Assembly (NCBI GenBank): GCA_014379585.1
Contig: JACMLN010000037.1
Location: 1 to 59,905, forward strand
Reading direction: 5' to 3'
DNA length: 59,905 nucleotides
DNA from: Gloeobacterales cyanobacterium ES-bin-313
GTDB taxonomy: Bacteria > Cyanobacteriota > Cyanobacteriia > Gloeobacterales > Gloeobacteraceae
Positions 5,850-59,905 of this stretch are shown piece after piece (the first letter of the stretch is position 1; each line of letters begins with the position of its first letter). The notes beneath the pieces were generated by a model. The model was not told where the DNA came from. It searched no databases and worked only from the letters and a program-made list of their open reading frames with translations. A program made the translations under genes and the position numbers.

Positions 5850-5865
5850 CGGAGTGACACGTATC

Positions 5866-6597: not shown

Positions 6598-6616
6598 CGA
6601 AAGAACGGCTTGGGGG

Positions 6617-7138: not shown

Positions 7139-7270
7139 GATTTTCCTAGACGACTGCGTGTTCAAATTTGCCGTACGTCCGGCAGCCATTTTCGATCAGA
7201 TTTTAAACCAAAATTCGCGAGCGTTGCTGGAAGCTTTGTAGGCTTTCTGAGTTGTCGCACCGAGTTCACA

Positions 7271-8662: not shown

Positions 8663-8698
8663 GACGTACACTGGTCTTGACGGGTTAGTGGACGTACC

Positions 8699-8914
8699 AT
8701 GGGCGAAAGTAAAAAGCGCAGACAGGATCTAGGGGAAGTCTACGGAAACCCCGACAAAGAACGCTACTTTGAATCGATTCCATTCACCAAGGAACAGGGA
8801 CGCTTCTGGTACAAGTTCACCGTGACAGGCACTTGGATCTGCATTGGCACCATCGCTGCTGCTTGGATCATTGTTCGGCTTGGGGTGGCAATGAAATGGT
8901 GGGGACTGTCCTAG
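8699..8914 (+). CDS. DUF2839 family small membrane protein
   Basis: A 71-residue protein starting MGESKKRRQDLGEVYGNP, then FTKEQGRFWYKFTVTGTW and one hydrophobic helix (about 45-63) ending KWWGLS. This is the cyanobacterial DUF2839 pattern: a basic soluble start, a KEQ block and a single membrane span. Function unknown. Its last codons overlap the start of rlmD by 19 bases, so the two are likely one transcript. Confidence 0.8.
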   Translation: MGESKKRRQDLGEVYGNPDKERYFESIPFTKEQGRFWYKFTVTGTWICIGTIAAAWIIVRLGVAMKWWGLS

Positions 8915-10263
8915 TGCAGCAGGGACAACTTGCCGAACTCCAGATCACGGCACTGGCGGCTGGGGGCGATGGGGTCGGTCGTTTGGACAATGGCTGTGTA
9001 GTCTTTGTGAGCGATGCTGTGCCCGGTGACCAGCTTGAAGTTCGCCTGGTTCGGGTCAAAAAAGGTCATGCCTTCGGCAAGATTTCTCGCCTACTAGAAC
9101 CATCCCCCCAGCGTGTTCGCCCATCCTGTATCGTCGCGGATCGCTGTGGCAGTTGCCAGTGGCAAGCTGTCGATTACCAAAGTCAGCTCGTCGCAAAACA
9201 TACCCAAGTGATCGATGCCCTTACCCATCTCGGTGGCTTTCTAGATCCCCCTGTTGCAGCCGTACTACCTCAGATTCACCCGTTGGGCTATCGCAACAAA
9301 TCGACTTTTCCGGTGGGTCGCAACAGCCTCGGTGAATTGGTGATCGGCTACTACCGCAAGGATTCGCACCGCATCGTCAATCTCAACGCCTGCCCGGTTC
9401 AAGATGATCGACTCAATCCCCTCCTCGCCGCTGCCAAACACCAGATGCGCACAAAAGGCTGGATTCCCTACGACGAAACAACACACCGAGGCACCCTGCG
9501 CCACTTGTCCCTGCGGATTGGGGAGCGCACAGGGGAAATGCTGCTTACTTTCATCGTTCGCGATCGACAATTGCCCGGACTAGAGGACGTTGCCCAAGCC
9601 CTTCAAGAAGATTTTCCAGCTCTCGTCGGAATCTGCATCAACGAAAATTCCCTAAGAGGCAATGCCATCTTTGGTGAAAAGACCGAGTGTATTGCAGGCC
9701 GTCCTTATCTTGAAGACAAGCTCGATGACCTCACGTTTGCGATTGAGCCGACTACTTTTTTCCAGATTTGCACGGCGCAAGCAGAAGTGATTGCACGCCT
9801 AGTGGTCGCTGCGGCGCAAGCACAGCCGGAAGATACGCTGATCGATGCCTACTGCGGGATCGGTACTTTGACGTTGCCCCTCGCCCGCGCAGCCGGACGG
9901 TTGATCGGGATCGAAAATCATCCGCGCTCCATCGAACAGGCAAAGCGCAATGCCCAAAATAATCACTTCCAAAACTGCCATTTTGTACTTGGAACAGTCG
10001 AAGCAGAACTAGAACATTTTCCAGCCAATATCATCACCCTCGATCCACCACGTCGGGGCTGTGAACCGCAAGTACTAGAAGCCATTCTCAAAAACCGCCC
10101 GCGCCGGATTATCTATGTCAGCTGCAACCCAGCTACCCTGGCACGGGATCTGAAAATCTTGGTAGCCGGTGGCTATACGCTCGCCCAAGTGCAGCCAGTG
10201 GATCTGTTCGCCCAAACTCACCACGTCGAGTCAATTGCCACCCTCAATTGGCAGAACCGTTGA
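8896..10263 (+). CDS. rlmD: 23S rRNA (uracil-C5)-methyltransferase, RlmD/RumA type
   Basis: A TRAM domain (about residues 5-65, ITALAAGGDGVGR) is followed by iron-sulfur cysteines Cys78, Cys84, Cys87 (CIVADRCGSC) and Cys166. A methyltransferase core then shows YCGIGT (319-324), DPPRRGC (383-389) and the catalytic nucleophile Cys410 in VSCNPATLARD. This is the RumA/RlmD layout that methylates uracil C5 in 23S rRNA; which uracil is modified cannot be read from sequence. ATG 8896 follows GGGGTGG. A GTG at 8914, overlapping the upstream stop as TAGTG, is an equally plausible start. Its 3' end overlaps a convergent acetyltransferase gene by 20 bases. Confidence 0.9.
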   Translation: MVGTVLVQQGQLAELQITALAAGGDGVGRLDNGCVVFVSDAVPGDQLEVRLVRVKKGHAFGKISRLLEPSPQRVRPSCIVADRCGSCQWQAVDYQSQLVAKHTQVIDALTHLGGFLDPPVAAVLPQIHPLGYRNKSTFPVGRNSLGELVIGYYRKDSHRIVNLNACPVQDDRLNPLLAAAKHQMRTKGWIPYDETTHRGTLRHLSLRIGERTGEMLLTFIVRDRQLPGLEDVAQALQEDFPALVGICINENSLRGNAIFGEKTECIAGRPYLEDKLDDLTFAIEPTTFFQICTAQAEVIARLVVAAAQAQPEDTLIDAYCGIGTLTLPLARAAGRLIGIENHPRSIEQAKRNAQNNHFQNCHFVLGTVEAELEHFPANIITLDPPRRGCEPQVLEAILKNRPRRIIYVSCNPATLARDLKILVAGGYTLAQVQPVDLFAQTHHVESIATLNWQNR

Positions 10264-10774
10264 GGGCAAGCTGCACTTCGTAGAATCCATCCGCATAAGA
10301 AACCTCAAAACCAAGGCGGCGGCAGAGTTTGAGCATCGGTTGATTGCTGCTGAGAACGTAACCTTCCAAGCTTTGCAAACCTTGAAATCGCGCCACCTCG
10401 ATGGCTTTTTCCAAAAGTTTGCGGCCTAGCCCTTGACGATGCCAGGGATCTGCAACAATCAGAGCAAATTCAGCGCTTCCACCACCGAGATGGGCAAGAC
10501 GTACAACCCCTAACTCTTCAACTTGGCTTGGATATTGCACAGCAGTGATGGCGAGTTCACGACTGCGATCAAAATTTGTAAAGCGCTCAACATCGGCATC
10601 GGTAATCTTCTGGCAGTCGGGCAATTGAAAGAAGCGCTGAAAAAGCGATTGGCGAGAGCAACGATAAAATAACCCCCAGTGCAGCGCCAGATCCGTCGAT
10701 TGTAGAGGGCGCAAATACACATTCAACCCACTACGCAACTGCCAAGTTTCCTCAGGGACATCCAGGATTTTCAT
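10244..10774 (-). CDS. GNAT family N-acetyltransferase (Pat-like domain)
   Basis: A 176-residue single-domain GNAT. The acetyl-CoA loop is ALIVADPWHRQGLGRKLLEK, followed by YVLSSNQPMLKLCRRLGF. The N-terminal block LRPLQSTDLALHWGLFYRCSRQS resembles the acetyltransferase domain attached to acyl-CoA-synthetase-like Pat proteins (protein lysine acetyltransferases), but the large upstream domains are absent. The substrate could therefore be a protein lysine, but this is inference. Overlaps the rlmD 3' end convergently. Confidence 0.82.
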   Translation of the reverse strand: MKILDVPEETWQLRSGLNVYLRPLQSTDLALHWGLFYRCSRQSLFQRFFQLPDCQKITDADVERFTNFDRSRELAITAVQYPSQVEELGVVRLAHLGGGSAEFALIVADPWHRQGLGRKLLEKAIEVARFQGLQSLEGYVLSSNQPMLKLCRRLGFEVSYADGFYEVQLALNGSAN

Positions 10775-10863
10775 AAGCTGTCCAAATCCATGCCCATCTT
10801 AGCGCTCATGCGCAAAGCCTCACGTTTTGCGTGAAGCCTACCGCACGAACCAAAATCAGGCAC

Positions 10864-10887
10864 GTAGGGGCGCAGCATACTGCGCCC
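10864..10887. repeat. Palindromic intergenic repeat, copy 2
   Basis: GTAGGGGCGCAGCATACTGCGCCC lies between the dapL stop and the start of the upstream-facing acetyltransferase gene, both on minus. It differs by one base in the core from copy 3 (37964). Could form a hairpin in RNA; no T-run follows. Confidence 0.75.
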
Positions 10888-10908
10888 AGACATCGATCAC
10901 ACTACCTG

Positions 10909-12087
10909 TCAAGCATCGAAACGGAACCCTGCTTTATCCATCCGATCGATCGCTTCGCGCATCCGATCGTCAGGGACGGTCAGGGCGATCCGAAAGTAAC
11001 CTTCGCCGTAGGCACCGTAGCCATTTCCCGGTGGAACGATGATGCCGCACTTGTCGAGGAGGGTACTGATGAACTCTAGCGAAGTCTTGAAAGATTTCGG
11101 AATCGGTGCCCAGACATAGAGCGTTGCCTTAGGTGCAGTCAACGGCCAGCCCAAAGAGCAAAGTCCATCGACGAGAATATTGCGGCGGTTTTGATAGACA
11201 GACATCAATTCGTGCAGGCGCTCATCGCTCATGCCAAAAGCAGCAATGGCTGCCTCTTGAATGGCTTTGAAGGCTCCAGAGTCAATGTTTGTTTTCACTT
11301 GGCCGAGACCACCGATGCCCATGGCGTTGCCGATCACAAAGCCGATGCGCCAACCAGTCATGTTGTAGGCTTTCGAGCAAGAGAGATACTCAAGGGCAAC
11401 GTCTTTTGCCCCAGGCACCTGAAAGATGCTAGGAGGCTTATAGCCGTCGTAAGCCATTTCGCTGTAGGCATTGTCGTGGCAGATGAGAACATCGTGCTTT
11501 TTCGCAAAGTGGACGAGCTTCTCGAAGAACTCTAGAGTTGCCAGTGCACCAGTCGGGTTGTTGGGATAGTTGATCCAGAGCAGTTTGGCTTTGCGGGCGA
11601 CTTCGTCGGGAATGGCATCGAGATCTGGCAAATAATCTCTTTCCGGCAACAGGGGCATGGTGTAGTATTCGCCCCCGGCAAAGATCGTCGAGGTGCGATA
11701 GACCGGATAGGCTGGGTCAGGAATCAAGGTGAAATCGCCGGGATCGACAAAAGCCAGAAAAGTATTATGAATTGCTTCTTTGGATCCGATAGACGAAATC
11801 ACTTCCGTATCAGGATTCCAACCACCGACACCGAAACGCCGCTCGAACCAAGCTGCCGCTGCTTCGCGATAGGCTTTGGTGCCTTTGTAGGGGGGGTAGT
11901 TGTGGGTGGAAGGATCATCGATCGCCCGATGCATAGCCTGCAAGACAATATCAGGCGTGGGCTTGTCGGGATCGCCGATCCCCATATTGATAATGTCAAC
12001 GCCACGGGCGACAGCTTCGTCGCGGCGACGGTCAATTTCGGCAAACAAGTACGGTGGGATGCGATCCAAACGGCTGGCAGTCTTCAT
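10909..12087 (-). CDS. dapL: LL-diaminopimelate aminotransferase (class I/II PLP enzyme)
   Basis: A 392-residue fold-type I aminotransferase. The PLP-binding lysine is Lys239 in SCSKAYNMTGWRIGF. YPNNPTG (174-180), Asp205 and Tyr208 supply cofactor contacts. N-terminal SRLDRIPPYLFAEID and the block HNYPPYKGTKAYREA match DapL-type enzymes, which convert tetrahydrodipicolinate directly to LL-diaminopimelate for lysine and peptidoglycan in cyanobacteria. A related aromatic or general aminotransferase role cannot be excluded from sequence alone. It is transcribed alone; its upstream region carries twin hairpin repeats. Confidence 0.85.
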   Translation of the reverse strand: MKTASRLDRIPPYLFAEIDRRRDEAVARGVDIINMGIGDPDKPTPDIVLQAMHRAIDDPSTHNYPPYKGTKAYREAAAAWFERRFGVGGWNPDTEVISSIGSKEAIHNTFLAFVDPGDFTLIPDPAYPVYRTSTIFAGGEYYTMPLLPERDYLPDLDAIPDEVARKAKLLWINYPNNPTGALATLEFFEKLVHFAKKHDVLICHDNAYSEMAYDGYKPPSIFQVPGAKDVALEYLSCSKAYNMTGWRIGFVIGNAMGIGGLGQVKTNIDSGAFKAIQEAAIAAFGMSDERLHELMSVYQNRRNILVDGLCSLGWPLTAPKATLYVWAPIPKSFKTSLEFISTLLDKCGIIVPPGNGYGAYGEGYFRIALTVPDDRMREAIDRMDKAGFRFDA

Positions 12088-12134
12088 AAAAAATGTAGAA
12101 TTTCGAACCGCAACATTCTACTGTGCCCTAAGCT

Positions 12135-12199
12135 ACTTCTGAAAATCTCTTTTCAGAAAACCGCTGATTTCCATGGGACTTCTGAAAATCTCTTTTCAG
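12135..12199. repeat. Twin direct repeats, each a hairpin, upstream of dapL
   Basis: A 22-base word starting ACTTCTGAAAATC and ending TTTTCAG occurs identically at 12135-12156 and 12178-12199 (period 43). Within each, CTGAAAA-TCTC-TTTTCAG is a perfect 7-base stem with a 4-base loop. They lie 48-112 bases upstream of the dapL start, on the leader side. They could be operators or RNA hairpins. Two units are too few for a CRISPR call. Confidence 0.7.
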
Positions 12200-12373
12200 T
12201 AAACCCGTGAGATTGATAAAGCAGCCCTCGCACCGGAAATCTCGTGGCTCGACGCGAAGTGCCCCGAAGGAAACCCCCTTGGGGGGCTAGCGCCCTGAAA
12301 GAAGCACTCTTGGGGTGTCCCCTGGGATTGTGCCGAAGGTTATTGACCACCAACGCTCCGATTGCCATGAATT

Positions 12374-13246
12374 TCAAGCAAAAGGCCGAAGTGCCGCGAT
12401 CATCGCCTGGGTATCTTTAGGTCGCGCGAGAGGATCGAAAGCACTTGCAGCACTCAGCACCCGAATTAAAGGTCTCGGTAAGAAGTCAAAAGAATCGAGG
12501 ATAAATCGGCGCTCCCGTGGCTCATAGTATTTGCCTGGATACTGGCGCGTGAGCAAGTACATCAAGGTGGTCGCCACCCCAAAAATATCTGACTGGAGGC
12601 AGGGCCGGCCCTGACTTTGCTCCGGAGCACCGTAGCCAGGCGTGGCAATACGAGTTCCCTGGCGATTGCTGGCTTCTTTGACTGCTCCAAAATCGATCAA
12701 AGTAATCTTACTGGGGTTAAATCGGAAAATTAAATTTGCAGGCTTAATATCGCGATGAATAATCGGTGGATTGTGACCGTGCATATAACTGAGTACTTCA
12801 CAGGTCTCAATCATCCAACCGACGGCTTGGGCAATCGATGCTGGCAGGGCATGTTCTAGGGTAGAACCATGCACCATCTCCATGACCAAATAGTAGCTAT
12901 TATCAGTGGTGAAATAATCGTAAAACTTAGGGATGCCAGGGTGATTTAGCGCCGCTAAGGTATTTGCTTCTCTTAGGAACAATTCCCGCGCTTTGGCTTT
13001 GCGAGAGAGGTCGGCATCAATTTCTTTCAGTACTGCAAGGCGGTCTGTTTGACAGTTATATACCAAGTAAGTTGTGCTCATTCCGCCTTGGGCGAGGGGG
13101 CCGATCACTTCGTAGCGGTTGTTATTATCCGGATTTTCAAGAAACCCCTGACGCACAATCAGATAGCCACAAGTACGGCAGAAACGCCCATTTTTCGGGT
13201 TTTGGTCGCAACAGGCAGATCGCACCATGCTTCTGGTACTTGTCAT
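12374..13246 (-). CDS. Serine/threonine protein kinase with N-terminal 4-Cys motif
   Basis: A 290-residue soluble Hanks-type kinase. The N-terminus carries Cys12/13 and Cys23/26 (FCRTCG), the 4-Cys prefix seen in many cyanobacterial kinases. Kinase motifs are complete: glycine loop GPLAQGGMSTTY, Lys74 in AVLKEID, HRDIKPAN (Asp166, Asn171), DFG at 185-187 and APEQ in the activation region. No membrane segment or sensor domain follows, so it ends with the catalytic domain. GAGGA seven bases upstream supports this ATG. It lies 118 bases downstream of the last injection-system gene on the same strand, so co-transcription is possible. Confidence 0.88.
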   Translation of the reverse strand: MTSTRSMVRSACCDQNPKNGRFCRTCGYLIVRQGFLENPDNNNRYEVIGPLAQGGMSTTYLVYNCQTDRLAVLKEIDADLSRKAKARELFLREANTLAALNHPGIPKFYDYFTTDNSYYLVMEMVHGSTLEHALPASIAQAVGWMIETCEVLSYMHGHNPPIIHRDIKPANLIFRFNPSKITLIDFGAVKEASNRQGTRIATPGYGAPEQSQGRPCLQSDIFGVATTLMYLLTRQYPGKYYEPRERRFILDSFDFLPRPLIRVLSAASAFDPLARPKDTQAMIAALRPFA

Positions 13247-13363
13247 CGCATTTCCTCACTGAGGTAAACAGTAAATAGACGACTCCCAAAGTGCCTTTGG
13301 AAATCGGCCGAGCAGATCTGTGTCCAGAATAACCGTCTGTAGAGACACTCTCCAGCAAACTGC

Positions 13364-13582
13364 TTATTGGTTGAGTAAGGCTCGCCACCAATCATCCTCA
13401 TCGGCCACTTGCTTCTGGGCAACCTGGGGCTGCTGCGTTTTTTTGTTCATCTTACCGATCTCATCGACCCAGCGCTGGCGACTGCTGTGCTCTAAGTCCA
13501 AAATTTCAGCCGAAGCCCAATGAAAGTGATAGGCGATGTAGGCTACCTCCTCGAACAGGCGGTCGGAGGGGTAGCCTACAAT
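13364..13582 (-). CDS. DUF6760-like small protein of contractile injection systems
   Basis: A short frame missed by standard start rules. From ATT at 13582 it reads (I/M)VGYPSDRLFEEVAYIAYH, then FHWASAEILDLEHSSRQRW and VDEIGKMNKK, ending DDWWRALLNQ (72 residues). The GYPSDRLFEEVAYIAYHFHW block matches from memory the small DUF6760 protein found after gp41-like proteins in contractile injection loci. There is no ATG, GTG or TTG in frame between the upstream stop and the conserved start, so ATT (AUU) is the likely initiation codon; a GGGGGA run lies directly before it. It overlaps the preceding gene by 7 bases. Role in assembly unknown. Confidence 0.75.
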   Translation of the reverse strand: MVGYPSDRLFEEVAYIAYHFHWASAEILDLEHSSRQRWVDEIGKMNKKTQQPQVAQKQVADEDDWWRALLNQ

Positions 13583-13956
13583 TCCCCCGCGAGGGCAAGC
13601 TCCACCGCAAACTGGCTATTGCATTGAGGGCACTCAGCCGGAATATGCACATTGCCCTGCTGATTGAGTCGGTTATACAACTCCCGCAAGTAAGCAATAT
13701 CCCGTGTAAACAGCCCTTCAAGCAGCTTCGGGCTGACAGAATTTAAGCTGCCCAAACGGAGAATCACCCGCGAAAGCATCACCAAGGTTCCATAGGGTGG
13801 ATGTTCTTGGGCAGTGCGATCCCGTTGCACAGCCATTTCATCTCTGGCTGTGGCCAAGCGCATGATGCCTTTACGGTGAACATGCCCCTGTGCATCGATC
13901 AAGCCACGGGGCAGGGTAAATTCAAATTCGGTCTGAAAATTTTCTTTGCGAACCAT
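13576..13956 (-). CDS. Phage tail assembly (gp41-like) protein, copy 2 with CxxC tail
   Basis: The 126-residue protein contains FQTEFEFTLPRGLIDAQGHV, HRKGIMRLATARDEM and VILRLGSLNSV, the conserved layout of the tail assembly/gp41-like family in contractile injection loci. It is clearly paralogous to the next gene upstream (13993-14316). Unlike that copy it has a C-terminal CPQCNSQF, half of a zinc-ribbon-like motif. Probably a chaperone or adaptor between tube and baseplate; the exact role is not established. Overlaps the DUF6760-like gene by 7 bases. Confidence 0.8.
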   Translation of the reverse strand: MVRKENFQTEFEFTLPRGLIDAQGHVHRKGIMRLATARDEMAVQRDRTAQEHPPYGTLVMLSRVILRLGSLNSVSPKLLEGLFTRDIAYLRELYNRLNQQGNVHIPAECPQCNSQFAVELALAGEL

Positions 13957-13992
13957 AGCAACAACGAGAGCGATAAGAACAAAATAGCCCCT

Positions 13993-14316
13993 TCATGCTT
14001 GGGGTGTTTTGGCCGATTTTTCTTCGGGGATCAAATCATTGATTTTGCGGTAAAAATTTTGGAGATAGTTCAAATCTGCAGAAAAGAAGCCCTCGACGAC
14101 ACCTGTGGTGACTTCTTGAAGGGCACCCAAGCGCAGAATCACCCGTGCCAGGATAATCACAGTCGCATAAGCAGGATTGGCTTTGACGCGGGGATCCCGC
14201 AGTGGTGTAATCTCGTCGATGGCCGTTGCCAGTCGCATCACTCCCTTGCGGTGGAGGTTGCCTTCAGGATCGAGATAACCCTTCGGCAAAGTGAATTCGA
14301 ATTCCGTTTGAAACAT
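13993..14316 (-). CDS. Phage tail assembly (gp41-like) protein, copy 1
   Basis: A 107-residue protein beginning MFQTEFEFTLPKGYLDPEG with HRKGVMRLATAIDEI, YATVIILARVILRLGAL and FFSADLNYLQNFYRKIN. It aligns along its whole length with the following gene (13576-13956), so the pair is a tandem duplication. This copy lacks the CxxC tail and ends in a Lys/Ala-rich stretch. Located between the third tube-like gene (24 bases) and the second copy (36 bases), on one transcript. Confidence 0.8.
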   Translation of the reverse strand: MFQTEFEFTLPKGYLDPEGNLHRKGVMRLATAIDEITPLRDPRVKANPAYATVIILARVILRLGALQEVTTGVVEGFFSADLNYLQNFYRKINDLIPEEKSAKTPQA

Positions 14317-14340
14317 GGTCGTTCGGCCTACAATCCCTTA

Positions 14341-14928
14341 TCAAATTGAGAAGCTAGCGCCAGCAGAGGCGGAAGCGGAAACCCCCATGCTCATGGATGC
14401 GGAAGCACTAAAGCTGGCAGTTGCAGAAGCAGAGTAGGAAAGGGAAGTTGTTTTCTGCAATCTGATCAAGTCTTCGACGGCCAATTTGAGTTCTTCGATG
14501 ACAAAATCTGTGCTTTTCGCACTCGCATCTGTGATCGAAAACTCTGTGGGCCAAGCCCTTTGGAAGTAGAAAACGGCTTGGGGCTGACCGTCTTGATTCA
14601 TGATTTTTAGGTAGCCATCGCGACGATTATTGCGCCACCGCCAGTCTTGGGTGGACTGAAACCATTCAGCAAAGGCATCGCTTGCGCTAATACAACGCCG
14701 CAGAACAATATCGCTGACATTCAAGTTGCCAGGAATCTTCGTTTCCTCGACGCGCCCGTAAGGAGCAGATCCCCAACGATCCCCACAGACTTCTGTCACT
14801 TTGATAGCGGGTTGGGCGATCTTAATCCCCTTGCACTCCAAAAAAGTGGCATCCGTGCTTTCGCTGCTGCCGACAAGTTTGAGGTCAACATAGAAACGGC
14901 AGGCGACTAACTTTTCAAGCTGTTCCAC
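14341..14928 (-). CDS. Tail tube-like protein (gp19 family) with Ser/Ala-rich tail
   Basis: A 195-residue protein with the tube/gp19-like fold region CRFYVDLKLVGSSESTDATF, ECKGIKIAQPAIKV, then KIPGNLNVSDIVLRR, WFQSTQDW and RDGYLKIMNQDG. It resembles the second type of inner tube or tube-initiator protein in injection systems rather than the two preceding paralogs. The last ~30 residues are almost only Ser, Ala and Met/Phe (SYSASATASFSASASMSM), which is unusual. Start is GTG, supported by GGAGG six to seven bases upstream. Distance to the preceding gene is 35 bases. Confidence 0.8.
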   Translation of the reverse strand: MEQLEKLVACRFYVDLKLVGSSESTDATFLECKGIKIAQPAIKVTEVCGDRWGSAPYGRVEETKIPGNLNVSDIVLRRCISASDAFAEWFQSTQDWRWRNNRRDGYLKIMNQDGQPQAVFYFQRAWPTEFSITDASAKSTDFVIEELKLAVEDLIRLQKTTSLSYSASATASFSASASMSMGVSASASAGASFSI

Positions 14929-14963
14929 CCGATGACCTCCAGTACTGCAGAAGCAAAATTAAA

Positions 14964-15491
14964 CTAATCGTTGCCATTTTGGAAAACACTTGAACCTTGA
15001 GGCCCCGATTGCTGACTGGTAATCCGGCGCATAAACTCGTAGCCAAACTTAACTTTTTCCATGGCCATTTGACTGGCTGTTGCATCGAACATGGGTGGTG
15101 AGTAAGAGACAAGATAGGAATTAACGAACTCCCATCGGATCACTTCTTCAGCACTCTGATTGTAGGAAACAATCCAGGAAAGACGACGACCCCCTTCAGG
15201 TTTTGCCCATTTGGTCGCGCCTTTAATCACGTGGTTCGCTGCTGAATACCATTTGTAAAGGGCGTCATCCTGGGAAGCCACGAGGGTCATTTCTAGCTGT
15301 GGAAACTTTTCAAAGGTTGGGGTAATTTGACGAATTTGGTCTCCATTTTTGCGCACACCGACGAGACTCTCGTTGCCGGCCACAGGAGAGTTCACATTCA
15401 CTTGTGAACATTTCAGAATAATTTTGTCGGTAATCCCACCCTCGGCGTTGTAGTAAAACTTGGCGCCAATTAAGAACTCATTCAGTCCCAT
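14964..15491 (-). CDS. Contractile injection system tail tube protein, second
   Basis: A 175-residue tube-type protein starting MGLNEFLIGAKFYYNAEGG and ITDKIILKCSQV. Its N-terminus, ITPTFEKFPQLEMTLVASQDD, KWYSAANHV and YLVSYSPPMFDATASQMAME align with the first tube protein (15561-16019). Such proteins stack as hexamers inside the sheath. It is preceded by an intrinsic terminator, so it is probably made at a lower level than the first tube protein. GGAG lies about 9 bases before the ATG. Confidence 0.85.
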   Translation of the reverse strand: MGLNEFLIGAKFYYNAEGGITDKIILKCSQVNVNSPVAGNESLVGVRKNGDQIRQITPTFEKFPQLEMTLVASQDDALYKWYSAANHVIKGATKWAKPEGGRRLSWIVSYNQSAEEVIRWEFVNSYLVSYSPPMFDATASQMAMEKVKFGYEFMRRITSQQSGPQGSSVFQNGND

Positions 15492-15513
15492 GATCTAAAA
15501 CTCCGTAAAGTTT

Positions 15514-15548
15514 GATAAAAAGCAGGACAAGTGGCTTGCTTGTCCTGC
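15514..15548 (-). terminator. Intra-operon intrinsic terminator between tube genes
   Basis: On the minus strand: GCAGGACAAG, 7-base loop, CTTGTCCTGC, then TTTTTATC. The 10-base stem is perfect and G+C-rich and the T-run follows at once, a textbook rho-independent terminator. It sits between the first tube gene (stop at 15561) and the second (start at 15491). It would limit read-through so that cap, sheath and tube are produced in excess over the downstream parts. Confidence 0.88.
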
Positions 15549-15560
15549 GCTAGAAAGGGT

Positions 15561-16019
15561 TTACATGATCCGCTTAATGCCTTCGTGAACCAGTTCAAGA
15601 GATTCATTGGCCATATTCGGCGAAGCGGCGGAAAACGTGGGGCCGGTGTACTTGCAGGGATAGCAGTTCTGCACTTCCCAGCGAGCTTGCATCGTTCCGG
15701 ATTGATCGTAGGCAGTCACCGAAGCTGACTTGCGGTTGGAACGCCATGCGCTTGCGCCTGCGTCGGTTTTGTTGCAGTTCTCGTACCAGGTGTAGAGATC
15801 GCGCTCATTGGTCGCTACTAGTTTCACATTGACGTGGGTAAATTTCTCCACGGTAGGTGTCGCTTGGCGGGTCTTGTTTCCACCTTTGCCGGAACCTTGG
15901 ACATTCTCGCCGCCGCCAACGGGGTTGCTGCAGGACAGTCCGCTGATTTCGATCAGCAACTTGTCCGACAGGCCATCAGCCTCGAAGTAGAATTTACACG
16001 CTGTTAAAAATTCAGCCAT
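15561..16019 (-). CDS. Contractile injection system tail tube protein, first (major)
   Basis: A 152-residue protein: MAEFLTACKFYFEADGLSDK, LLIEISGLSCSNPV, ATPTVEKFTHVNVKLVATNE, WYENCNKTD, SVTAYDQSGTMQARWEVQNC and LELVHEGIKRIM. This matches the major inner tube (Hcp/gp19-like) proteins of extracellular contractile systems. Its position immediately after the sheath and ahead of the terminator suggests it is the major, highly expressed tube. GGAG lies eight to eleven bases upstream of the ATG. Confidence 0.88.
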   Translation of the reverse strand: MAEFLTACKFYFEADGLSDKLLIEISGLSCSNPVGGGENVQGSGKGGNKTRQATPTVEKFTHVNVKLVATNERDLYTWYENCNKTDAGASAWRSNRKSASVTAYDQSGTMQARWEVQNCYPCKYTGPTFSAASPNMANESLELVHEGIKRIM

Positions 16020-16055
16020 CTTCTCGCTCCAAATTGAATGACGGATTCCTGGACG

Positions 16056-16100
16056 AATCTCCGGCCACCATCAGCATTTAGGGATGGGTAGCCGGAGATT
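16056..16100 (-). promoter_or_regulatory. mRNA hairpin between sheath and tube genes
   Basis: On minus, AATCTCCGGC and GCCGGAGATT form a perfect 10-base stem around a 25-base loop that can itself pair (CCATC with GATGG). No T-run follows, so it is more likely an mRNA stabilising or processing element than a terminator. It lies in the 89 bases between the sheath stop and the major tube start. Confidence 0.6.
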
Positions 16101-16108
16101 TAAGCACA

Positions 16109-17782
16109 CTAAGCTTCTTCGTCAGCACCGCCATTCCATTGGCTGATGCGGAAGATCACAAACTCAGCCGGACGGACTGGGCAGATGCCAATCTCGACGT
16201 ACAACCGACCCAAAACCATGGTTTCGGGGGTGTTCAGTTCTTCGTCGCACTTGACGTAGAACGCCTGATCCGGAGTCGCACCGAACAGCGCACCCTCGCG
16301 CCAGATCCGCTCTAGGAAGTTGTTGATCGTGCGCTTGACCCGCATCCAGAGATCTTGGTCGTTGGGTTCGAAGACGGCCCATTGGGTGCCAAGTTCAATG
16401 GATTTTTCGATGTAGCTGATCAGACGACGGACGCTGATGTAGCGCCATTCGGTCTTGTCAGGCTCAACCAGGGTACGCGCGCCCCAGATCCGGATGCCGC
16501 GATTGGGGAAAGTGCGGATGCAGTTGATCCCAATTGGGTTAAGTAGTTCTTGCTCGCGGAAGTTGGTGTCGTAGCCGAGGCCGATGACGCCACGGGGAAC
16601 TTCGTTCGCCGGTGCTTTGTAGACACCACGGGTTTCGTCGGTACGTGCCCAAACGCCCATCATGTGGCCAGAAGGAGGTACCAGAATCGGACGACCACCG
16701 TTGCGGGGGTTAGCCACTTTGATCCAGGGGTAGTAGATGGCGGCAAACATCGAGCGACGGTTGAAATCCGCAAGCCATTGCACCACGTCTTGGGGTTTGA
16801 CTTTATCGGGAGGGGGATCCAGGATCACCATACGGTTGGGGGGGTTGGGGATGTCGCCGTTGGCCGCCCCTTCACAGAGACTGATCATCATCTCCATGAT
16901 TCCGTGAACCTGTTCGAGGTCCAAGAGATTGGCTTCGTAGGCGCGCATGATATCTGGGCAGGCGAGCATGGTGATTTCGTCGATTTCGAAGATACCGCGT
17001 ACGCCCGTACGGTCATCGCGGATCCCTTCAACATCGCGGGCAAAGCGGTCTGCCGAAGGCACGACCAAGGGAGGAGACAATTCGTAGGGGCCATTGCCGG
17101 GGCGTTTGGCGAGGGGGCGACCCGTCGTAGCCAAATCTTCAGCGATGAGAAACGCCGAAGTTTGAAGGGCTGTGACGACGTAGGTGGCAACTTGGGTGGC
17201 AGTGCCAGCATCCATGGTCAGATGTTCGAAGCGTTCGAGAATCTGATCGCCGCGCCGCACGGACACGGTGAAATATTCGCCGGTATCGCGAGGGGCTTCG
17301 CCTTCGGTGCCTTCGGGCAAAGGCCGTGGGGTACCATCGGAAACCTGCACGGTTACAGGGCCACTGGCGGCTTGTTCGGCTTTGAGGGAAAGACGCAAAG
17401 CTGGGCGGTTGCCGCGACTTTGGATCATCAATCCTGTTTCCGTGGTGGGCTGAAGCGCACCGACATTGGGTGCCCCAGGCAAAGAGGTTCCGATGCTTGT
17501 GATCCAGCAGCGTCCGCCGCCGTTCATAAACCAGCCGTACACAGCAAAAGGCAAGTAGGCATTGAAGTCGGTGAAACCATCGGAGCCAGGACGGCCAAAG
17601 TATTGAATGAACTGAGACCAGTTGGTGACCAGCATGGGCTTGAAAGGTTCAGCCCCGCCGCGTACGTCTTCCGTAAATCCGACGAAGCCGGCAATGGAAG
17701 TGGCGACACCTTCGATCGGGCGACTGCCGCGATCTATTTCTTCGATGTATACGCCAGGTGCAAAATAATCGAGTCTTGGCAT
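16109..17782 (-). CDS. Contractile tail sheath protein
   Basis: The 557-residue protein begins MPRLDYFAPGVYIEEIDRGS, RPIEGVATSIAGFVGFTE, the universal sheath N-terminus that makes the handshake between subunits. The C-terminal domain is also typical: GINCIRTFPNRGIRIWGART, YISVRRLISYIEKSIE, NNFLERIWREGAL and GRLYVEIGICPVRPAEFVIF. A variable insertion (about 110-260) is present, as in many non-phage sheaths. ATG 17782 has AGGAAG upstream; the frame is open to 17818 but without need. This is the outer contracting cylinder of the machine. Confidence 0.95.
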   Translation of the reverse strand: MPRLDYFAPGVYIEEIDRGSRPIEGVATSIAGFVGFTEDVRGGAEPFKPMLVTNWSQFIQYFGRPGSDGFTDFNAYLPFAVYGWFMNGGGRCWITSIGTSLPGAPNVGALQPTTETGLMIQSRGNRPALRLSLKAEQAASGPVTVQVSDGTPRPLPEGTEGEAPRDTGEYFTVSVRRGDQILERFEHLTMDAGTATQVATYVVTALQTSAFLIAEDLATTGRPLAKRPGNGPYELSPPLVVPSADRFARDVEGIRDDRTGVRGIFEIDEITMLACPDIMRAYEANLLDLEQVHGIMEMMISLCEGAANGDIPNPPNRMVILDPPPDKVKPQDVVQWLADFNRRSMFAAIYYPWIKVANPRNGGRPILVPPSGHMMGVWARTDETRGVYKAPANEVPRGVIGLGYDTNFREQELLNPIGINCIRTFPNRGIRIWGARTLVEPDKTEWRYISVRRLISYIEKSIELGTQWAVFEPNDQDLWMRVKRTINNFLERIWREGALFGATPDQAFYVKCDEELNTPETMVLGRLYVEIGICPVRPAEFVIFRISQWNGGADEEA

Positions 17783-17826
17783 AGGGGTCTTCCTGTAGAT
17801 GAGGTGGAACAGCAGCAAGGGAGAAC

Positions 17827-18672
17827 TTACCTGGGATTCAAGAGGATCTCCTTGAAGGTGTAGTTTTGGGAGTCAACCAAAACATTGCACTTTTGCGACG
17901 TGTAACCAGGGCATTGCAACTCCAGAACATAGTGTCCAAGAGAGAGGTTGTCGAAGTAGAACAGACCTTCCTGATTACTTGTGGCTGCTTTCTCTGTCCC
18001 TGCGATGGCCACACGAGCGGCGGCAAGGGGCAAAGTTGTGGATGCGCTCTTGATGATCCCAGCGACAGAAACCCGACGATTGCGCGTCGCTTCGATGGGA
18101 CCATCTTCGAGTTCGGCGTTGCGCATACGGGTAATGCGCTCCCAGACCAGCGGAACAGGCGCTGCTGCCTGTGGCACAATCGGCGCTGTGATCGTGACCA
18201 GGATCGAGGGGCGCAGGGGAGTGCCAAGCGCAAGCCAAAGCGCACCAACATCGATATGCCGCACAGCGCAGACGGTCATATTGAGATTGCCGAAGCCTCT
18301 CAATGCGGGAGCGAGGAGATCCTCGCGCAACTGCCGATGGCGCAACAAGAGTGCCAATGCTTCTGTAAAGAGGTGATGCTCACCCAAGGTTGTGCGATCC
18401 CATGCACTGATCACAAAAGAAGCATCGAACCACATTGGCAGATTGCCAACGAACGCGGATGGCCGCCCCTCCGTGAGACGATGCTCAACTTGGCGACCTG
18501 AGTGCTGCACTTGAGTGCTTTCCCGCAAGTCGTAAAAGTAGACATTTAGCCCTGAACCACCGTTGATGAGCCGACGCTCGCCGGGGTGAGCAAAGTCAAT
18601 TTGCTCTGTACTCGTCAACGAAGTGCCCCCAGCCAGAATATCCGCCAGGGTCTGGGACAAGGCTGTGATCAT
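17827..18672 (-). CDS. Injection-system cap/terminator protein (DUF4255, Pvc16-like) with Ig-like C-terminal domain
   Basis: Residues about 1-185 match DUF4255: LSQTLADILAGG, LNVYFYDLRES, FDASFVISAWDRTTLGEHHL and PSILVTITAPIV. This family caps the distal end of the sheath-tube. The C-terminal ~80 residues (VSVAGIIKSASTTLPLAAARV, LFYFDNLSLGHYVLELQCPG) resemble a carboxypeptidase-regulatory/peptidase-associated beta sandwich. It is the first gene of the cluster, 44 bases before the sheath start, and its upstream region is divergent to a two-component system. No clear ribosome site precedes the ATG. Confidence 0.85.
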   Translation of the reverse strand: MITALSQTLADILAGGTSLTSTEQIDFAHPGERRLINGGSGLNVYFYDLRESTQVQHSGRQVEHRLTEGRPSAFVGNLPMWFDASFVISAWDRTTLGEHHLFTEALALLLRHRQLREDLLAPALRGFGNLNMTVCAVRHIDVGALWLALGTPLRPSILVTITAPIVPQAAAPVPLVWERITRMRNAELEDGPIEATRNRRVSVAGIIKSASTTLPLAAARVAIAGTEKAATSNQEGLFYFDNLSLGHYVLELQCPGYTSQKCNVLVDSQNYTFKEILLNPR

Positions 18673-18905
18673 AAAGGAGCGCGATAGTCGTCCATTCAGT
18701 CACAGATTAGGGAGGGAGGGTCTGTTCTGGTTATTAGACTTTGGTCGGAGATTTTTTGCGCCTATCAATAAAGATGACGTAGTTCTATCCCTAGGGGGTT
18801 TGGCCGCTATACTCATGGCAAGGTTCTTGTCCATGTGTGCGTTGTATATTTGTTTGTTTCCCTTACCAGATAGTCGTAACATTCCGTGGAGTGACAACCG
18901 CAGCA

Positions 18906-20045
18906 ATGAGTTTGCAGACAACCACCTCCGCAACTTCCGTCCAGAGCATGCCCTCACGTGTTAAGCCTGGGATCACAGGTTCTACACAGTTGCACAGCCT
19001 CTGCCAACTGCAAATTGAGCAACTTCTGGGAATGTTTCCCCTCACCTGTGTGCAGGTCACTTACTACGATCCACACATCGGTGCGCAGCAGCACTTGATC
19101 CGCTATTGCGATGGCCAACCTCAGTTTGATCGAAAAATCCTCGATTACCTCTTAGAGGAAGCATGGCTGTCGGATGCGCTATCCGTATTGACTCTTGTGC
19201 ACCTAGACTCCAAAGTTTTACCAGAATTTGCCTACGCTTGTCCACTTGCGCAACGGGATCTCCATCCTGAATACTTCATCCTCTTCACTTGCGAACCCCT
19301 GACCCAGGCCCAAGAGCAAACGATCCAAAAATATGCCGCTTGCCTCGCACAGCATCTCGAACTCTACCAAAACAACTGGCGGCAAAAGTCCGAAATTGAA
19401 CTTTTAGAGCAAGTGGTTCAGCGGGCAGGTCACCAATTGCGCAATCCGCTGGCCTTGATTGCCCTCTACGCAGAAAATCTTTGCTTAGGTCTCCCAGAGG
19501 GCAAAGCTCACGAACAAGCGACCATTATCCGAGAGACGGTCGCTGATTTAAACGCTAATTTGACAGAGTTAATCTACTGCGGTCAAGCAGAACGCTTGCG
19601 TTACTCAGCCCAGGATTTGCGTTTGCTCGTCACAGAAGTGATTTCAGGATTGCAGCCTTGGCTTGACAAGAAACATATTTGTATCGCCCTGCCAGATCAC
19701 TCGTTGACCCTCATGTTTGATCGCCTTCAAATGAAGCAAGTTTTCGATAATCTCTTGAATAATGCCGTCTATTTTTCGCCTGAAGGATCAACGATCCGCT
19801 GTCGGTGGCGCTCTTTTCAGACAGAAGTTTTGATCGAAGTGGCGGATCAAGGGCCAGGCATGTCTCAGCAAGACTTGGAAAATTTATTTACACCCTTTTA
19901 CTCGCAGCGGCCTGGCGGAACAGGTTTAGGTTTAGCGATTGCCAAAAAAATCATCTTGGATCACCAAGGCAGTCTTTGGGCACAGAATCTCCCGATTGGT
20001 GGGGCACAGTTCTCGATGAGCCTGCCACGCTCCCTCAATTCTTAG
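18906..20045 (+). CDS. Sensor histidine kinase
   Basis: Soluble 379-residue kinase. The N-terminal ~165 residues form a GAF-like input region with no membrane span. The H-box is RAGHQLRNPLALI with His176, and the ATPase part shows MKQVFDNLLNNAVYFSPEG, DQGPGMS and GGTGLGLAIAKKI. An upstream GTG (18891) is an alternative start. It overlaps nothing and is followed after 2 bases by its response regulator, so the two form one unit. It diverges from the injection-system cap gene with roughly 220-230 bases of shared upstream DNA. Confidence 0.88.
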   Translation: MSLQTTTSATSVQSMPSRVKPGITGSTQLHSLCQLQIEQLLGMFPLTCVQVTYYDPHIGAQQHLIRYCDGQPQFDRKILDYLLEEAWLSDALSVLTLVHLDSKVLPEFAYACPLAQRDLHPEYFILFTCEPLTQAQEQTIQKYAACLAQHLELYQNNWRQKSEIELLEQVVQRAGHQLRNPLALIALYAENLCLGLPEGKAHEQATIIRETVADLNANLTELIYCGQAERLRYSAQDLRLLVTEVISGLQPWLDKKHICIALPDHSLTLMFDRLQMKQVFDNLLNNAVYFSPEGSTIRCRWRSFQTEVLIEVADQGPGMSQQDLENLFTPFYSQRPGGTGLGLAIAKKIILDHQGSLWAQNLPIGGAQFSMSLPRSLNS

Positions 20046-20047
20046 CC

Positions 20048-20719
20048 ATGGCGATCCAAACCCTCTCGATTTTGTTGGTGGATGACGAACAACGCTTTCG
20101 TCAGGGTTTGCGCACCCTCTTGAATTTTTACAGCAGCCCGACCCTGCATTACGAAGTAGTCGGTGAGGCCGCCTCCATCGATCAGGCTTTGGCGCTTGCG
20201 GCTGAACAACGCCCCGGCTTGATCCTGCTTGATCTTGAACTGGCGCGGGGGGATGGGGTGATGCTGCTTACCCAATTGCGCGAAGCCAGTTTTGCTGGGA
20301 AAGTACTCGTCTTGTCCGCCCACCAAGAGGACGACTGGGTATTTAGGGCAATGCAGGCGGGAGCAAGTGGCTACGTATTTAAAACCCATCTTGCCCAGCA
20401 ACTGAGCGAAGCGATTGCCACCGTGATCAAGGATGAAGTCTATTTGCCTGCCGAGGTTGCTACTCAGTTTTTCCGCCTTTTTCACTATTATTCAGGGCGT
20501 TCTCTGCAAGCCCGCCAAGCTATTCACCTGACAGATCGCGAACAAGAGGTGCTGCACTGGCTCGTCCGTGGTGCATCCAACGAAGAGATCGCCAAGCATC
20601 TTTACATCACGATTGCAACGGTCAAGGCACACTTAACTGCTATTTTTGAAAAACTACAGGTAAGTAGCCGCACCCAAGCGATCGTTGCAGCCCTCAAGCT
20701 CGGTCTTGTGCAAGCGTAA
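20048..20719 (+). CDS. NarL/FixJ-type response regulator
   Basis: A 223-residue regulator. The receiver domain has acidic pair Asp12/Asp13 (LLVDDEQRF), phospho-acceptor Asp62 in ILLDLELARGDG, and Lys in GYVFKTHLA. The C-terminal LuxR-type helix-turn-helix is LTDREQEVLHWLVRGASNEE, IAKHLYITIATVKAHLT. It follows the kinase gene by 2 bases and is presumably its partner. Targets unknown; the divergent injection-system operon is a candidate by position only. Confidence 0.92.
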   Translation: MAIQTLSILLVDDEQRFRQGLRTLLNFYSSPTLHYEVVGEAASIDQALALAAEQRPGLILLDLELARGDGVMLLTQLREASFAGKVLVLSAHQEDDWVFRAMQAGASGYVFKTHLAQQLSEAIATVIKDEVYLPAEVATQFFRLFHYYSGRSLQARQAIHLTDREQEVLHWLVRGASNEEIAKHLYITIATVKAHLTAIFEKLQVSSRTQAIVAALKLGLVQA

Positions 20720-20722
20720 GCC

Positions 20723-21889
20723 TTACCCTTGATCGGCGCTTTCCCCAAGGGTGACTTTGACGGCGAACTGCTGACTACCTCGCACAATATTCAGGCTCAC
20801 TTGATCGCCGATTTTGTGCTTTTGGACTTCGCTGATTAAGCTTTGGGCATCGGCAACGGCGACACCATCGATGGCCGTGACGACATCGCCACCGACGCGC
20901 AGGCGCAAATTCCCAGCGACAACTTCTTGATTTCCGGGCTGCAAACCTGCCGCCGCTGCACCGCTGCCGGGAACGACTTGCTCGATCAGTACACCTTGTT
21001 GGACAGGCAGGTTGAGGGCTTCTGCTACTGTCGGTGGAAGGGTTTGGATGACGACCCCTAAAGAAGCATGCTGGACGATCTTGCCTTTGCCTGCCAGAAG
21101 GTCGGGCAGAATTTCGCGGACTGTTTCGACGGGAACAGCAAAGCCAATGCCAGCACTCGACCCGCTGGTACTAAAAATCGCTGTATTCACTCCGATCAGT
21201 TGACCTTGGCTATCAAGTAATGGGCCACCGGAGTTGCCGGGATTAATCGCAGCATCGGTTTGAATGAGATTGCGCAGAGTTCGACCTGCTCGCTCAGATT
21301 GCAGGTCGCGACCCAAAGCACTGATGACCCCTGTGGTCAAGGTGCGGTCGAGTCCAAAAGGATTGCCAATCGCCAACACTTTGCGCCCAACTTTCAAACT
21401 TGCGGAATTGCCAAGGGTAATGGTCGTCAGATCTTTTGGAGGATCGACGAGTTGAATCACCGCCAAGTCATGGTTTGGATCTGCCCCCAGCATGCGCGCT
21501 GTGTAGCGCTTGCCACTCGCGAGGGTCACTTCGAGTCGCCGTGACCCTTTAACGACGTGGTAGTTGGTCAGAATCCGCCCTTCTGCATCGAGGATACTGC
21601 CTGAGCCTGTGCCCTGTTGAGGTACTGCCTGAAGAAAGTTATCGAAACTAAGTACTGTGGATGTAATATTGACAACTGTCGGGCTAACTTTTTCATAAAC
21701 AGTCACATTGTCCTGCTCATCACCAATCAGAGGCACTGTAGAAATAGTCGTAGTCGTGGCAGAAGATGAGCTGATGATTGGTGGTGCTACTGCGACTGTC
21801 TTTCCCAGTGCCAGATAGCTCCCTGCAGCACCACCTGCCGCAGCCAACAATGCAATCACTAAAACATCAAATGGTCGAAATGTCTTCAT
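20723..21889 (-). CDS. HtrA/Deg-type serine protease with one PDZ domain
   Basis: A 388-residue periplasmic or membrane-anchored protease for damaged proteins. An N-terminal hydrophobic segment (8-29) is followed by a Ser/Thr-rich linker. The catalytic triad is His111 (LTNYHVV), Asp141 (NHDLAVI) and Ser220 (NPGNSGGP). One PDZ domain occupies about 280-380 (GVLIEQVVPGSGAAAAGLQ). This is the HhoA/HhoB/HtrA group in cyanobacteria; which paralog cannot be decided. Its start overlaps the hyuA stop by 23 bases, so the two may share a transcript. Stop is four bases from the response-regulator stop (convergent). Confidence 0.93.
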   Translation of the reverse strand: MKTFRPFDVLVIALLAAAGGAAGSYLALGKTVAVAPPIISSSSATTTTISTVPLIGDEQDNVTVYEKVSPTVVNITSTVLSFDNFLQAVPQQGTGSGSILDAEGRILTNYHVVKGSRRLEVTLASGKRYTARMLGADPNHDLAVIQLVDPPKDLTTITLGNSASLKVGRKVLAIGNPFGLDRTLTTGVISALGRDLQSERAGRTLRNLIQTDAAINPGNSGGPLLDSQGQLIGVNTAIFSTSGSSAGIGFAVPVETVREILPDLLAGKGKIVQHASLGVVIQTLPPTVAEALNLPVQQGVLIEQVVPGSGAAAAGLQPGNQEVVAGNLRLRVGGDVVTAIDGVAVADAQSLISEVQKHKIGDQVSLNIVRGSQQFAVKVTLGESADQG

Positions 21890-23873
21890 GGTTCCTACTC
21901 ATCTTGATTACTAGCGTACCGCAAAGATCCACTGTGCTGTGCCATCCGGGAGGAATAATCACTGTCGCTTCAGGAAGCTCAATGAGCGCAGGACCATCGA
22001 TGCAATCGCCTTCACCAAGTGCTAATCCCTGCCATACCTGAATGGACTGAAACTGAGCATCGAACCAAGCGAGACGAGGCATTGAAACCCTTTGCTTCGT
22101 TGGTTTTGAGACGGTCAAGTTTGGAAGTTCTAACGGTTCGGTGGCTGCAAGACGCAATTGCACCACTTCAATAGTCTGGCTGGGATCTGACCAGCCGTAA
22201 CGCTGATTGTGAAGGGAGTGAAAGGCATCTGCAAGGGTGCTGTAGGGCATCTCCTTTGTTACAGGCACAGCCAGTTCGAAGGATTGCCCCCGATAGCGCA
22301 GATCCGCACTGAAGCTATGGATCGCCAAAGCGTGTGAGGCTCTAACCGCTAGGTTTTCACACAGAGAGACCCAAACCTCCCCTACTTCTGGCAAAGTTTT
22401 CAACACCGAGCAGGAATAATCTTCGCGCAGAGGCGAAACCGCAAGTCCTAACGCCGAGAGCACTCCGCCTGCACGAGGTACCAGAACAGTTCGGATCCCT
22501 AAAGCAGTGGCAAGGTCGCACGCGTGCATGGGGCCAGCCCCGCCAAAGGCGAGCAGTGCGAGGCGACGAGGATCGATGCCACGCTCGATGGACATCACCC
22601 GCAGGGCTGCGCACATATGGGCATTGGCAATGGCGCGCATGCCGATGGCAATCCGTTCGGCGCTTAAGCCTAAGGATTCACCAAGTTTTTCAAGAGCGGC
22701 AGCAGCAGCACTGCGATCAATGCGTACACTTCCCCCCAACATTGCCCCATCTTCCAGATAGCCAAGAAAGACATTGGCATCGGTGATCGTCGGTTGTTTC
22801 CCGCCCCGACCGTAGGCGACTGGGCCTGGTAGGGATCCCGCCGACTGTGGGCCAACTTTGAGTGCGCCGCCAGGATCGATCCAGGCAATTGAGCCACCGC
22901 CAGCACTCACTGTATGAATGTCGATCTGGGGCAGCCGCACGGGATAACCCGCGACGAGGGCTTCAGTGCTGGCTTGGGGTTGACCCTCTAAAATTAGCGA
23001 AACATCCGTACTCGTTCCGCCCATATCGAAAGTGAGTACGTGAGCAAAACCGGACTGCTGGGCAACAAAATGCGCGCCATTCACGCCACCCGCTGGTCCT
23101 GAAAGTAGGGCTAAAGCTCCATGTTGACTGGCCTGTTCAATCGTTGTCACTCCACCACTGGACTGCATAATTTTCGGTATCGGCAGACCAGAAGTTCTAC
23201 ACCCCTCCGCAAGGAGACCGAGATAGCGGGCGAGACCGGGGCTAAGATAAGCATCAACTACAGTTGTACTAAAACGCTCGTACTCCCGAAATTCAGGGGT
23301 GATGTCCGAAGAAAGCGAGAGATGCAGATTTGGAAACGCTTTACGTAGAGCTTTTGCAACTTGTTGTTCATGCTGAGGGAAACGAAAAGAGAATAAAAAT
23401 CCGACTGCAATGGATTCAATTTCTTCTTGTGTGATCCACTCTTGAAGCGTTGCAATCAAGGCTTCAAGGCTTTCACTGTGCAAGAGACGCAGCACTCCCT
23501 CCGACCCCATACGTTCATCGAGGGTCAAGCAGTGATCGCGTTGAACGAGGGGCTTCGGCTTTTGTAAGCGCAAGTCGTAGAGGTGGGGACGATTCTGTCT
23601 ACCGATCAACAAGATGTCGCGAAATCCGGCGGTCGTGATGAAAGCGGTCTTCGCCCCTTTGCCTTCGAGCAGAGCATTGGTGGCCACCGTCATCCCGTGG
23701 GTAAAGACAGCAATGGTTTCAGGATCTAATTCTGTCCGGGCAAATGCCTGGAAGACTCCCTCGGATTGGATCTGAGTCGAAGGTACTTTCGCGGTCAGAA
23801 CCTGGCCGTCAACAATGGCAACCAAATCGGTGAAAGTACCACCGACATCCACACCAAGACGAATATTTTTCAA
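21867..23873 (-). CDS. Hydantoinase/5-oxoprolinase A-type subunit (HyuA-like)
   Basis: A 668-residue protein of the hydantoinase/oxoprolinase superfamily. GVDVGGTFTDLV at residues 7-18 is the ATP-binding phosphate 1 motif. The central block has FTHGMTVATNALLEGKGA, SGPAGGVNGAHFVA, DMGGTSTDVSLI and FGGAGPMHACDLA. These enzymes open 5-membered cyclic amides with ATP, usually together with a B subunit. No HyuB gene lies next to it here, so the B subunit is elsewhere or the enzyme works alone. Substrate (hydantoin, oxoproline or acetone-like) is not determined. Confidence 0.85.
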   Translation of the reverse strand: MKNIRLGVDVGGTFTDLVAIVDGQVLTAKVPSTQIQSEGVFQAFARTELDPETIAVFTHGMTVATNALLEGKGAKTAFITTAGFRDILLIGRQNRPHLYDLRLQKPKPLVQRDHCLTLDERMGSEGVLRLLHSESLEALIATLQEWITQEEIESIAVGFLFSFRFPQHEQQVAKALRKAFPNLHLSLSSDITPEFREYERFSTTVVDAYLSPGLARYLGLLAEGCRTSGLPIPKIMQSSGGVTTIEQASQHGALALLSGPAGGVNGAHFVAQQSGFAHVLTFDMGGTSTDVSLILEGQPQASTEALVAGYPVRLPQIDIHTVSAGGGSIAWIDPGGALKVGPQSAGSLPGPVAYGRGGKQPTITDANVFLGYLEDGAMLGGSVRIDRSAAAAALEKLGESLGLSAERIAIGMRAIANAHMCAALRVMSIERGIDPRRLALLAFGGAGPMHACDLATALGIRTVLVPRAGGVLSALGLAVSPLREDYSCSVLKTLPEVGEVWVSLCENLAVRASHALAIHSFSADLRYRGQSFELAVPVTKEMPYSTLADAFHSLHNQRYGWSDPSQTIEVVQLRLAATEPLELPNLTVSKPTKQRVSMPRLAWFDAQFQSIQVWQGLALGEGDCIDGPALIELPEATVIIPPGWHSTVDLCGTLVIKMSRNHEDISTI

Positions 23874-23976
23874 TGCGCTTTAAAAACCACGCCACCAAAC
23901 GATCTTAAGCGCTTAATGACCCAGTTTTCTGTTCTAGGTGTTCGATTACCTCTCTGGTATGGTCTTCACAACTCCT

Positions 23977-24080
23977 TGTGGTGATGCGGAATTGGAGAGG
24001 GATTGGGAGATGTTTGGGTTAGCGATGGGAGGCGCATTGGGTTTGGATGCCTCAGCTACTCATTCCGATGACGAATCGAT
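23977..24080 (+). repeat. Dispersed intergenic repeat, copy B
   Basis: Contains GTGGTGATGCGGAATTGGAG, then GATTGGGAGA, GCGCATTGGGTTTGGATGCC and CATTCCGATGACGAATCGAT in the same order as copy C at 40298-40427. Lies in the 292 bases between the hyuA start and the ABC ATPase stop. The last part can pair as CATTCC/GGAATG-like arms only weakly. No intact gene. Confidence 0.65.
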
Positions 24081-24165
24081 ATGAGCGTGTAGCCGATTTT
24101 TTGACTGCCAAAGGCATCGCAGCCCCACCAATTTCCTGGTCAATCTGTTGGGTGGATGCAAAAGA

Positions 24166-58625: not shown

Positions 58626-59905
<1,280 letters not shown>

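Follow-up and report, generated by a model that had tools for sequence, protein, structure and literature searches.

A candidate leaky terminator between two tube genes of a Gloeobacterales contractile injection system

Why should a stop signal for transcription lie in the middle of a gene set that encodes the parts of one phage-tail-like machine? This question is raised by a 59,905-nt stretch of DNA from the Gloeobacterales cyanobacterium ES-bin-313 (contig JACMLN010000037.1, positions 1-59,905, assembly GCA_014379585.1), which is referred to as the window in the following. Here, a hairpin followed by a run of T separates the first two of three tube genes. These genes belong to a co-directional set on the minus strand, in the order cap-sheath-tube1-tube2-tube3-chap1-chap2:

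17827..18672, minus strand: cap-like gene (Pfam Pvc16_N and CarboxypepD_reg; PDB 9gts, Pvc16-domain protein)
16109..17818, minus strand: sheath gene (Pfam Phage_sheath_1/1C; PDB 8bky, E 5e-127)
15561..16019, minus strand: tube1, gp19 family (profile matches to Cis1-type tube chains)
14964..15491, minus strand: tube2, gp19 family (37% identity to tube1)
14341..14928, minus strand: tube3, gp19 family (profile matches to Cis1-type and to Afp5/Pvc5/All3323-type chains)
13993..14316, minus strand: chap1, tail-assembly-chaperone-like (phrog_508)
13576..13956, minus strand: chap2, tail-assembly-chaperone-like (phrog_508, weak Phage_TAC_7)

The set is part of a contractile injection system (CIS), as sheath, gp19-type tube and Pvc16-type cap genes stand together and baseplate genes are present in the genome. 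The latter (gp25, Baseplate_J and Tail_P2_I) form a separate locus on another contig, C29 (L154, 5164-1146), and a fourth gp19 tube gene is found on contig C140 (L143, 17764-18336), near the contig end and beside an FHA-domain gene. The injection system is hence spread over at least three contigs. Within the window, a Ser/Thr kinase gene comes after the cap-to-chap2 set, and two genes diverging from the cap gene (18837-20719, plus strand), which code for a histidine kinase and a response regulator of the LuxR type, are regarded as candidate regulators of the operon. The C-terminal tail of tube3 is Ser/Ala-rich (SYSASATASFSASASMSMGVSASASAGASFSI; 14341-14460, minus strand) and absent from the relatives' tube3 sequences that were displayed for comparison.

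To judge which gene encodes the bulk of the tube, profiles were compared with chains of known structures. The profile of the tube1 orthologs matches the Cis1-type tube chains All3324, Pvc1, Afp1, 7adz and 8bl4, and shows no match to Afp5, Pvc5 or All3323. The best matches of the tube3 profile are likewise Cis1-type chains, but it also matches Afp5, Pvc5 and All3323, which are of the tube-initiator type. Because of these matches, tube1 is likely the bulk (major) tube and tube3 possibly the tube initiator. Tube2 alone has no match in the PDB and groups with its counterparts from the same family.

A hairpin and T tract between tube1 and tube2

The gap between tube1 and tube2 measures 69 nt and contains the following elements:

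15522..15548, minus strand: terminator hairpin, a perfect 10-bp stem with G-C in 6 of 10 pairs and a 7-nt loop (read directly; terminator scan, folding, shuffles)
15514..15521, minus strand: U-tract TTTTTATC (read directly; terminator scan)
15501..15506, minus strand: Shine-Dalgarno-like site ACGGAG of tube2, 9 nt before the ATG

Read along the minus strand from 15548 to 15514, the stem opens 12 nt behind the tube1 stop codon (TAA, 15563-15561) and is formed by GCAGGACAAG and CTTGTCCTGC around the loop CAAGCCA (15548-15522). On the same strand, and with zero bases in between, it is followed by TTTTTATC, then by AAACTTT, the Shine-Dalgarno-like site (15506-15501) and, after 9 nt, the ATG of tube2 (15491). 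The minus-strand hairpin alone is stable, folding with -15.7 kcal/mol; for the 81-nt stretch folded as the plus strand, the z score is -3.6, with none of 200 shuffles being equally stable.

The element clearly stands out from its surroundings. In a scan of positions 5000-24999, it ranks at the top of 29 terminator-like sites; shuffles of the same region yield 24.0 such sites (sd 4.3), a number that 29 barely exceeds, so that most of the others are to be seen as chance. When the window was searched for stems of 10 bp with 6 G-C pairs and TTTTT behind them, this site was the single match; 300 dinucleotide-preserving shuffles of the window gave none, and even for the weaker class of 8 bp with 4 G-C pairs, just 0.03 sites are expected per window. 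For a genome-wide calibration, we used a 607-kb sample of the genome with crude, ORF-based gene calls. This sample holds 28 hairpin-plus-T sites with a T-tail score of at least 3, seven of which follow a gene end that faces a gene on the opposite strand, while five lie in tandem gaps (e.g. L131, with a gap of 43 nt) and 11 within called ORFs. By T-tail score, the tube1-tube2 site is the eighth among the hairpin-plus-T sites of the sample.

Several other identities were considered for the hairpin and rejected. It is not a repeat element or dispersed hairpin, as the stem has a single copy in the 4.26-Mb assembly, nor a bidirectional terminator, as no T run follows the stem on the plus strand. 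It does not mask a ribosome site either, since its stem does not include the Shine-Dalgarno-like site of tube2. No known RNA family was matched at the site in Rfam; the window has a single Rfam match, a TPP riboswitch located elsewhere (58661-58758, plus strand; RF00059, 66.7 bits).

The stop signal between tube1 and tube2 is thus a real, canonical element. The original prediction was a strong intrinsic terminator that separates the first two tube genes and is oriented with them; as a sequence element, it is confirmed by its anatomy, its absence from the 300 shuffles and the gp19-family membership of its two neighbours. Its description as a 'perfect 10-base G+C stem' is right about the ten perfect pairs and loose about their composition.

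Read-through and the distribution of similar elements

What does the element do? We consider it likely, with a probability of roughly 0.6, that it acts as a leaky intrinsic terminator inside the sheath-tube operon and reduces transcription of the four downstream genes. RNA polymerase would start in the promoter region ahead of the cap gene and produce a cap-sheath-tube1 RNA; a large fraction would release at the TTTTT after the hairpin, and the remainder would read through into tube2, tube3, chap1 and chap2, leaving the mRNA of tube1, sheath and cap above that of the genes downstream. A ribosome halting at the tube1 stop codon, so close to the stem, may help to keep termination incomplete. We infer that termination takes place in vivo, that it is partial and that the resulting ratio is of importance for assembly. 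In Synechococcus elongatus, RNA ends with a hairpin and U-tract indeed act as terminators, and longer U-tracts go along with less read-through (PMC13289151); that canonical terminators end only 22% of the transcription units in this organism (PMC13289151) was counted against our reading. A Rho_RNA_bind domain was not detected in the assembly, in a search whose control was positive in nine of 14 well-known genomes.

A higher level of tube1 RNA than of tube2 RNA would equally be expected if transcripts were cut and trimmed back to the hairpin, the stem mainly marking or protecting the RNA 3' end and shielding the tube1 mRNA from 3'-5' decay. Hairpins do stabilise RNA ends, and processing can look like termination (PMC13289151), but the five T directly behind the stem are unneeded for protection and are the signature of termination, which makes this explanation an unlikely one. 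Slightly less probable still is a near-complete terminator that closes a cap-sheath-tube1 unit, with tube2, tube3 and the chaperone-like genes transcribed from a separate promoter inside tube1. While the strong stem and T tract would suit such an arrangement, a scan of the 320 nt before tube2 for promoter-like sites returned only a lone TANNNT hexamer with a poor -35 (such a scan may overlook other kinds of promoter), and with only 7 nt separating TTTTTATC from the Shine-Dalgarno-like site, no room is left there for a promoter. Given this short spacing and the lack of a good promoter, tube2 and the genes after it probably owe their RNA to read-through.

The four nearest relatives, all of the same family, share the gene order, with sheath proteins 85% and tube1 proteins 70% identical to those of the window and with a tube2 counterpart at the same place in all of them. 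Their tube1-tube2 gaps of 32-36 nt carry the same kind of ribosome site and no hairpin or terminator. The identical order and short gaps favour a single transcription unit, which is a further argument against a separate promoter; they also imply that the machine works without the terminator, and a conserved regulatory element of the clade can be dismissed. Conservation at the same junction, which would have lent support to a partial terminator, is accordingly lacking, with the element absent in the four relatives and similar ones present in only three other lineages.

In a comparison of about 64 cyanobacterial loci, 4 of the 66 gaps scanned behind a bulk-type tube gene contain a strong hairpin-plus-T site, against about 0.1 expected. 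The four sites (those of the window, L087, L090 and L098) are mutually unrelated in sequence. In the same loci, such sites are also found in two of 62 sheath-tube gaps (0.25 expected), so that enrichment is not confined to the ends of tube genes; the cap-sheath, tube3-chap and chap-chap gaps have none (0/67). Taken together, the absence from the nearest relatives and the unrelated sites in other lineages point to a gain specific to this lineage, at a kind of boundary that has acquired such elements in others as well. It is conceivable that this gain was recent and nearly neutral, leaving downstream RNA somewhat lower to no benefit, as might be suspected from its absence in all four nearest relatives and in nearly all other cyanobacterial loci, and from the position of the cap gene, which does not follow copy number. 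With similar elements having arisen at the same boundary type in three other lineages, we hold this to be the least probable of the alternatives.

The terminator was originally proposed to set the stoichiometry of parts, with cap, sheath and major tube overproduced relative to the later parts because many copies of sheath and tube are needed. This proposal can be upheld in part. It agrees with the precedent of the phycocyanin operon, the co-directional gene set and the missing promoter-like site before tube2, and is weakened by the relatives without a terminator and by the cap gene. In the solved structure of the Anabaena CIS, 22 tube and 23 sheath rings compare to one hexamer per cap protein (PMC8894136). 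The cap is thus a low-copy part in this relative; since it sits upstream, lying ahead of the terminator is no sign of a high copy number. Sheath and tube1 are upstream as well, the latter being likely the major tube by its profile matches. The 'later parts' shrink to tube2, tube3 and the two chaperone-like genes, as the baseplate genes lie on C29.

A probable -1 frameshift in chap2

The last gene of the set is the site of a second finding: at G_GGG_GAA, ribosomes probably undergo a programmed -1 frameshift, by which chap2 would be extended into a DUF6760 domain:

13583..13588, minus strand: putative slip site GGGGGA at the end of chap2 (motif reading, locus comparison)
13541..13576, minus strand: hairpin, 6 nt behind the slip site (covariation across loci)
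13364..13588, minus strand: predicted -1-frame DUF6760 extension of chap2 (Pfam PF20546, E 2e-14)

The reading frame of chap2 ends with CTC GCG GGG GAA TTG TAG, whereas the -1 frame leads from GGG GGA into GGIVGYPSDRLFEEVAYIAYHFHW... and, in the window, contains no start codon of its own (ATG, GTG or TTG) in its open stretch before DUF6760. With a slip site, a downstream structure and a startless second domain in the -1 frame, chap2 resembles the lambda G/GT chaperone, the classic case of a frameshift in a tail assembly chaperone (PMC5009743).

Slip site and -1-frame DUF6760 are conserved among cyanobacteria and also occur in other phyla. The motif NNG GGG GAR is in the 0 frame at 32 loci, which were themselves collected by that motif; in the sheath and tube genes, GGG accounts for only 17% of glycine codons. 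When the motif was not used as a filter, GGGGGA or GGGGGG was found at most 30 nt upstream of 39 of 40 DUF6760 starts, and plasmid-borne loci of Streptomyces, Rhodococcus, Paraburkholderia, Rhizobium and Paenibacillus have one or the other at the same place. In the sole exception of the 40 (L108), GGGGGA is replaced by GCGGAAAAG, which is possibly slippery itself. In Streptomyces, a GTG that overlaps the stop codon offers an alternative start. In an archaeal injection-system-like locus on a plasmid of Haloferax larsenii (L177, 880-1149), DUF6760 has a gene and an ATG to itself, and no slip site is present.

The hairpin, GGCTACCCCTC...GAGGAGGTAGCC in the window, was compared in 28 related sequences. 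Two-sided changes occur at 4 of its 11 pairs, in a stretch that is also coding; 92.9% of the cells pair, as opposed to 89.4% in column shuffles and at most 59% when the pairing is slid, and the outermost pair is lost in some of the sequences. Terminator-like matches after chap2 in L061, L076, L077 and L094 turned out to be this hairpin and are not terminators.

If true, the frameshift would mean that injection machines kept the trick by which phages set the ratio of their tail assembly chaperones. We find it more interesting than the terminator, which is ordinary and lineage-specific. Our search of open-access papers returned no paper on DUF6760.

Comparison with known systems

A leaky terminator behind the gene of a high-copy structural protein, as proposed here, has a counterpart in phage T7, in which the terminator T-phi after capsid gene 10 is leaky; it differs in serving a phage RNA polymerase and in its unrelated sequence. 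If the two findings of this study are combined, CIS operons may tune the ratios of their parts twice after transcription start, by a partial post-tube terminator that was gained repeatedly in separate cyanobacterial lineages and by a programmed -1 frameshift in a Phage_TAC-like/DUF6760 chaperone, with a slip site that extends from cyanobacteria to actinobacteria, proteobacteria and Bacillota. We offer this generalization tentatively, as a possibility somewhat short of even odds.

In its anatomy, the element resembles the canonical intrinsic terminators of cyanobacteria (PMC13289151), in which a hairpin of less than -10 kcal/mol leads into a U-rich tract, but unlike them it is located between closely spaced co-directional genes and not at an evident unit end. 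Among open-access papers, we found no report on terminators in CIS operons. The Anabaena thylakoid-anchored CIS operon all3327-all3315 (PMC8894136) similarly contains sheath and gp19-type tube genes, and the PDB matches of the window genes include its sheath chain All3325 and its tube chain All3324. The sheath of the window, however, matches 8bky/8bl4 much more strongly than All3325, and its cluster differs from that of Anabaena by having three tube genes and baseplate genes elsewhere.

The closest parallel is the phycocyanin (cpc) operon of Synechococcus elongatus, in which a partial terminator between genes yields an mRNA ratio of 6:1 (PMC3219970). Both cases concern a multi-copy assembly of cyanobacteria with a terminator between the genes of one set, and in cpc, read-through sets the mRNA ratio of abundant to rarer parts. 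There, the ratio was measured and fits the structure; the present, predicted case concerns the parts of a phage-tail-like machine, with a low-copy cap upstream. As close relatives have the same genes without the terminator, a clean test is possible. Should the terminator prove as leaky as expected, it would make the CIS another cyanobacterial assembly, after the phycobilisome, with a partial terminator setting a ratio of parts, and provide a case from an injection machine in a lineage without detectable Rho. We see it as a plausible further example of the known partial terminators inside cyanobacterial operons.
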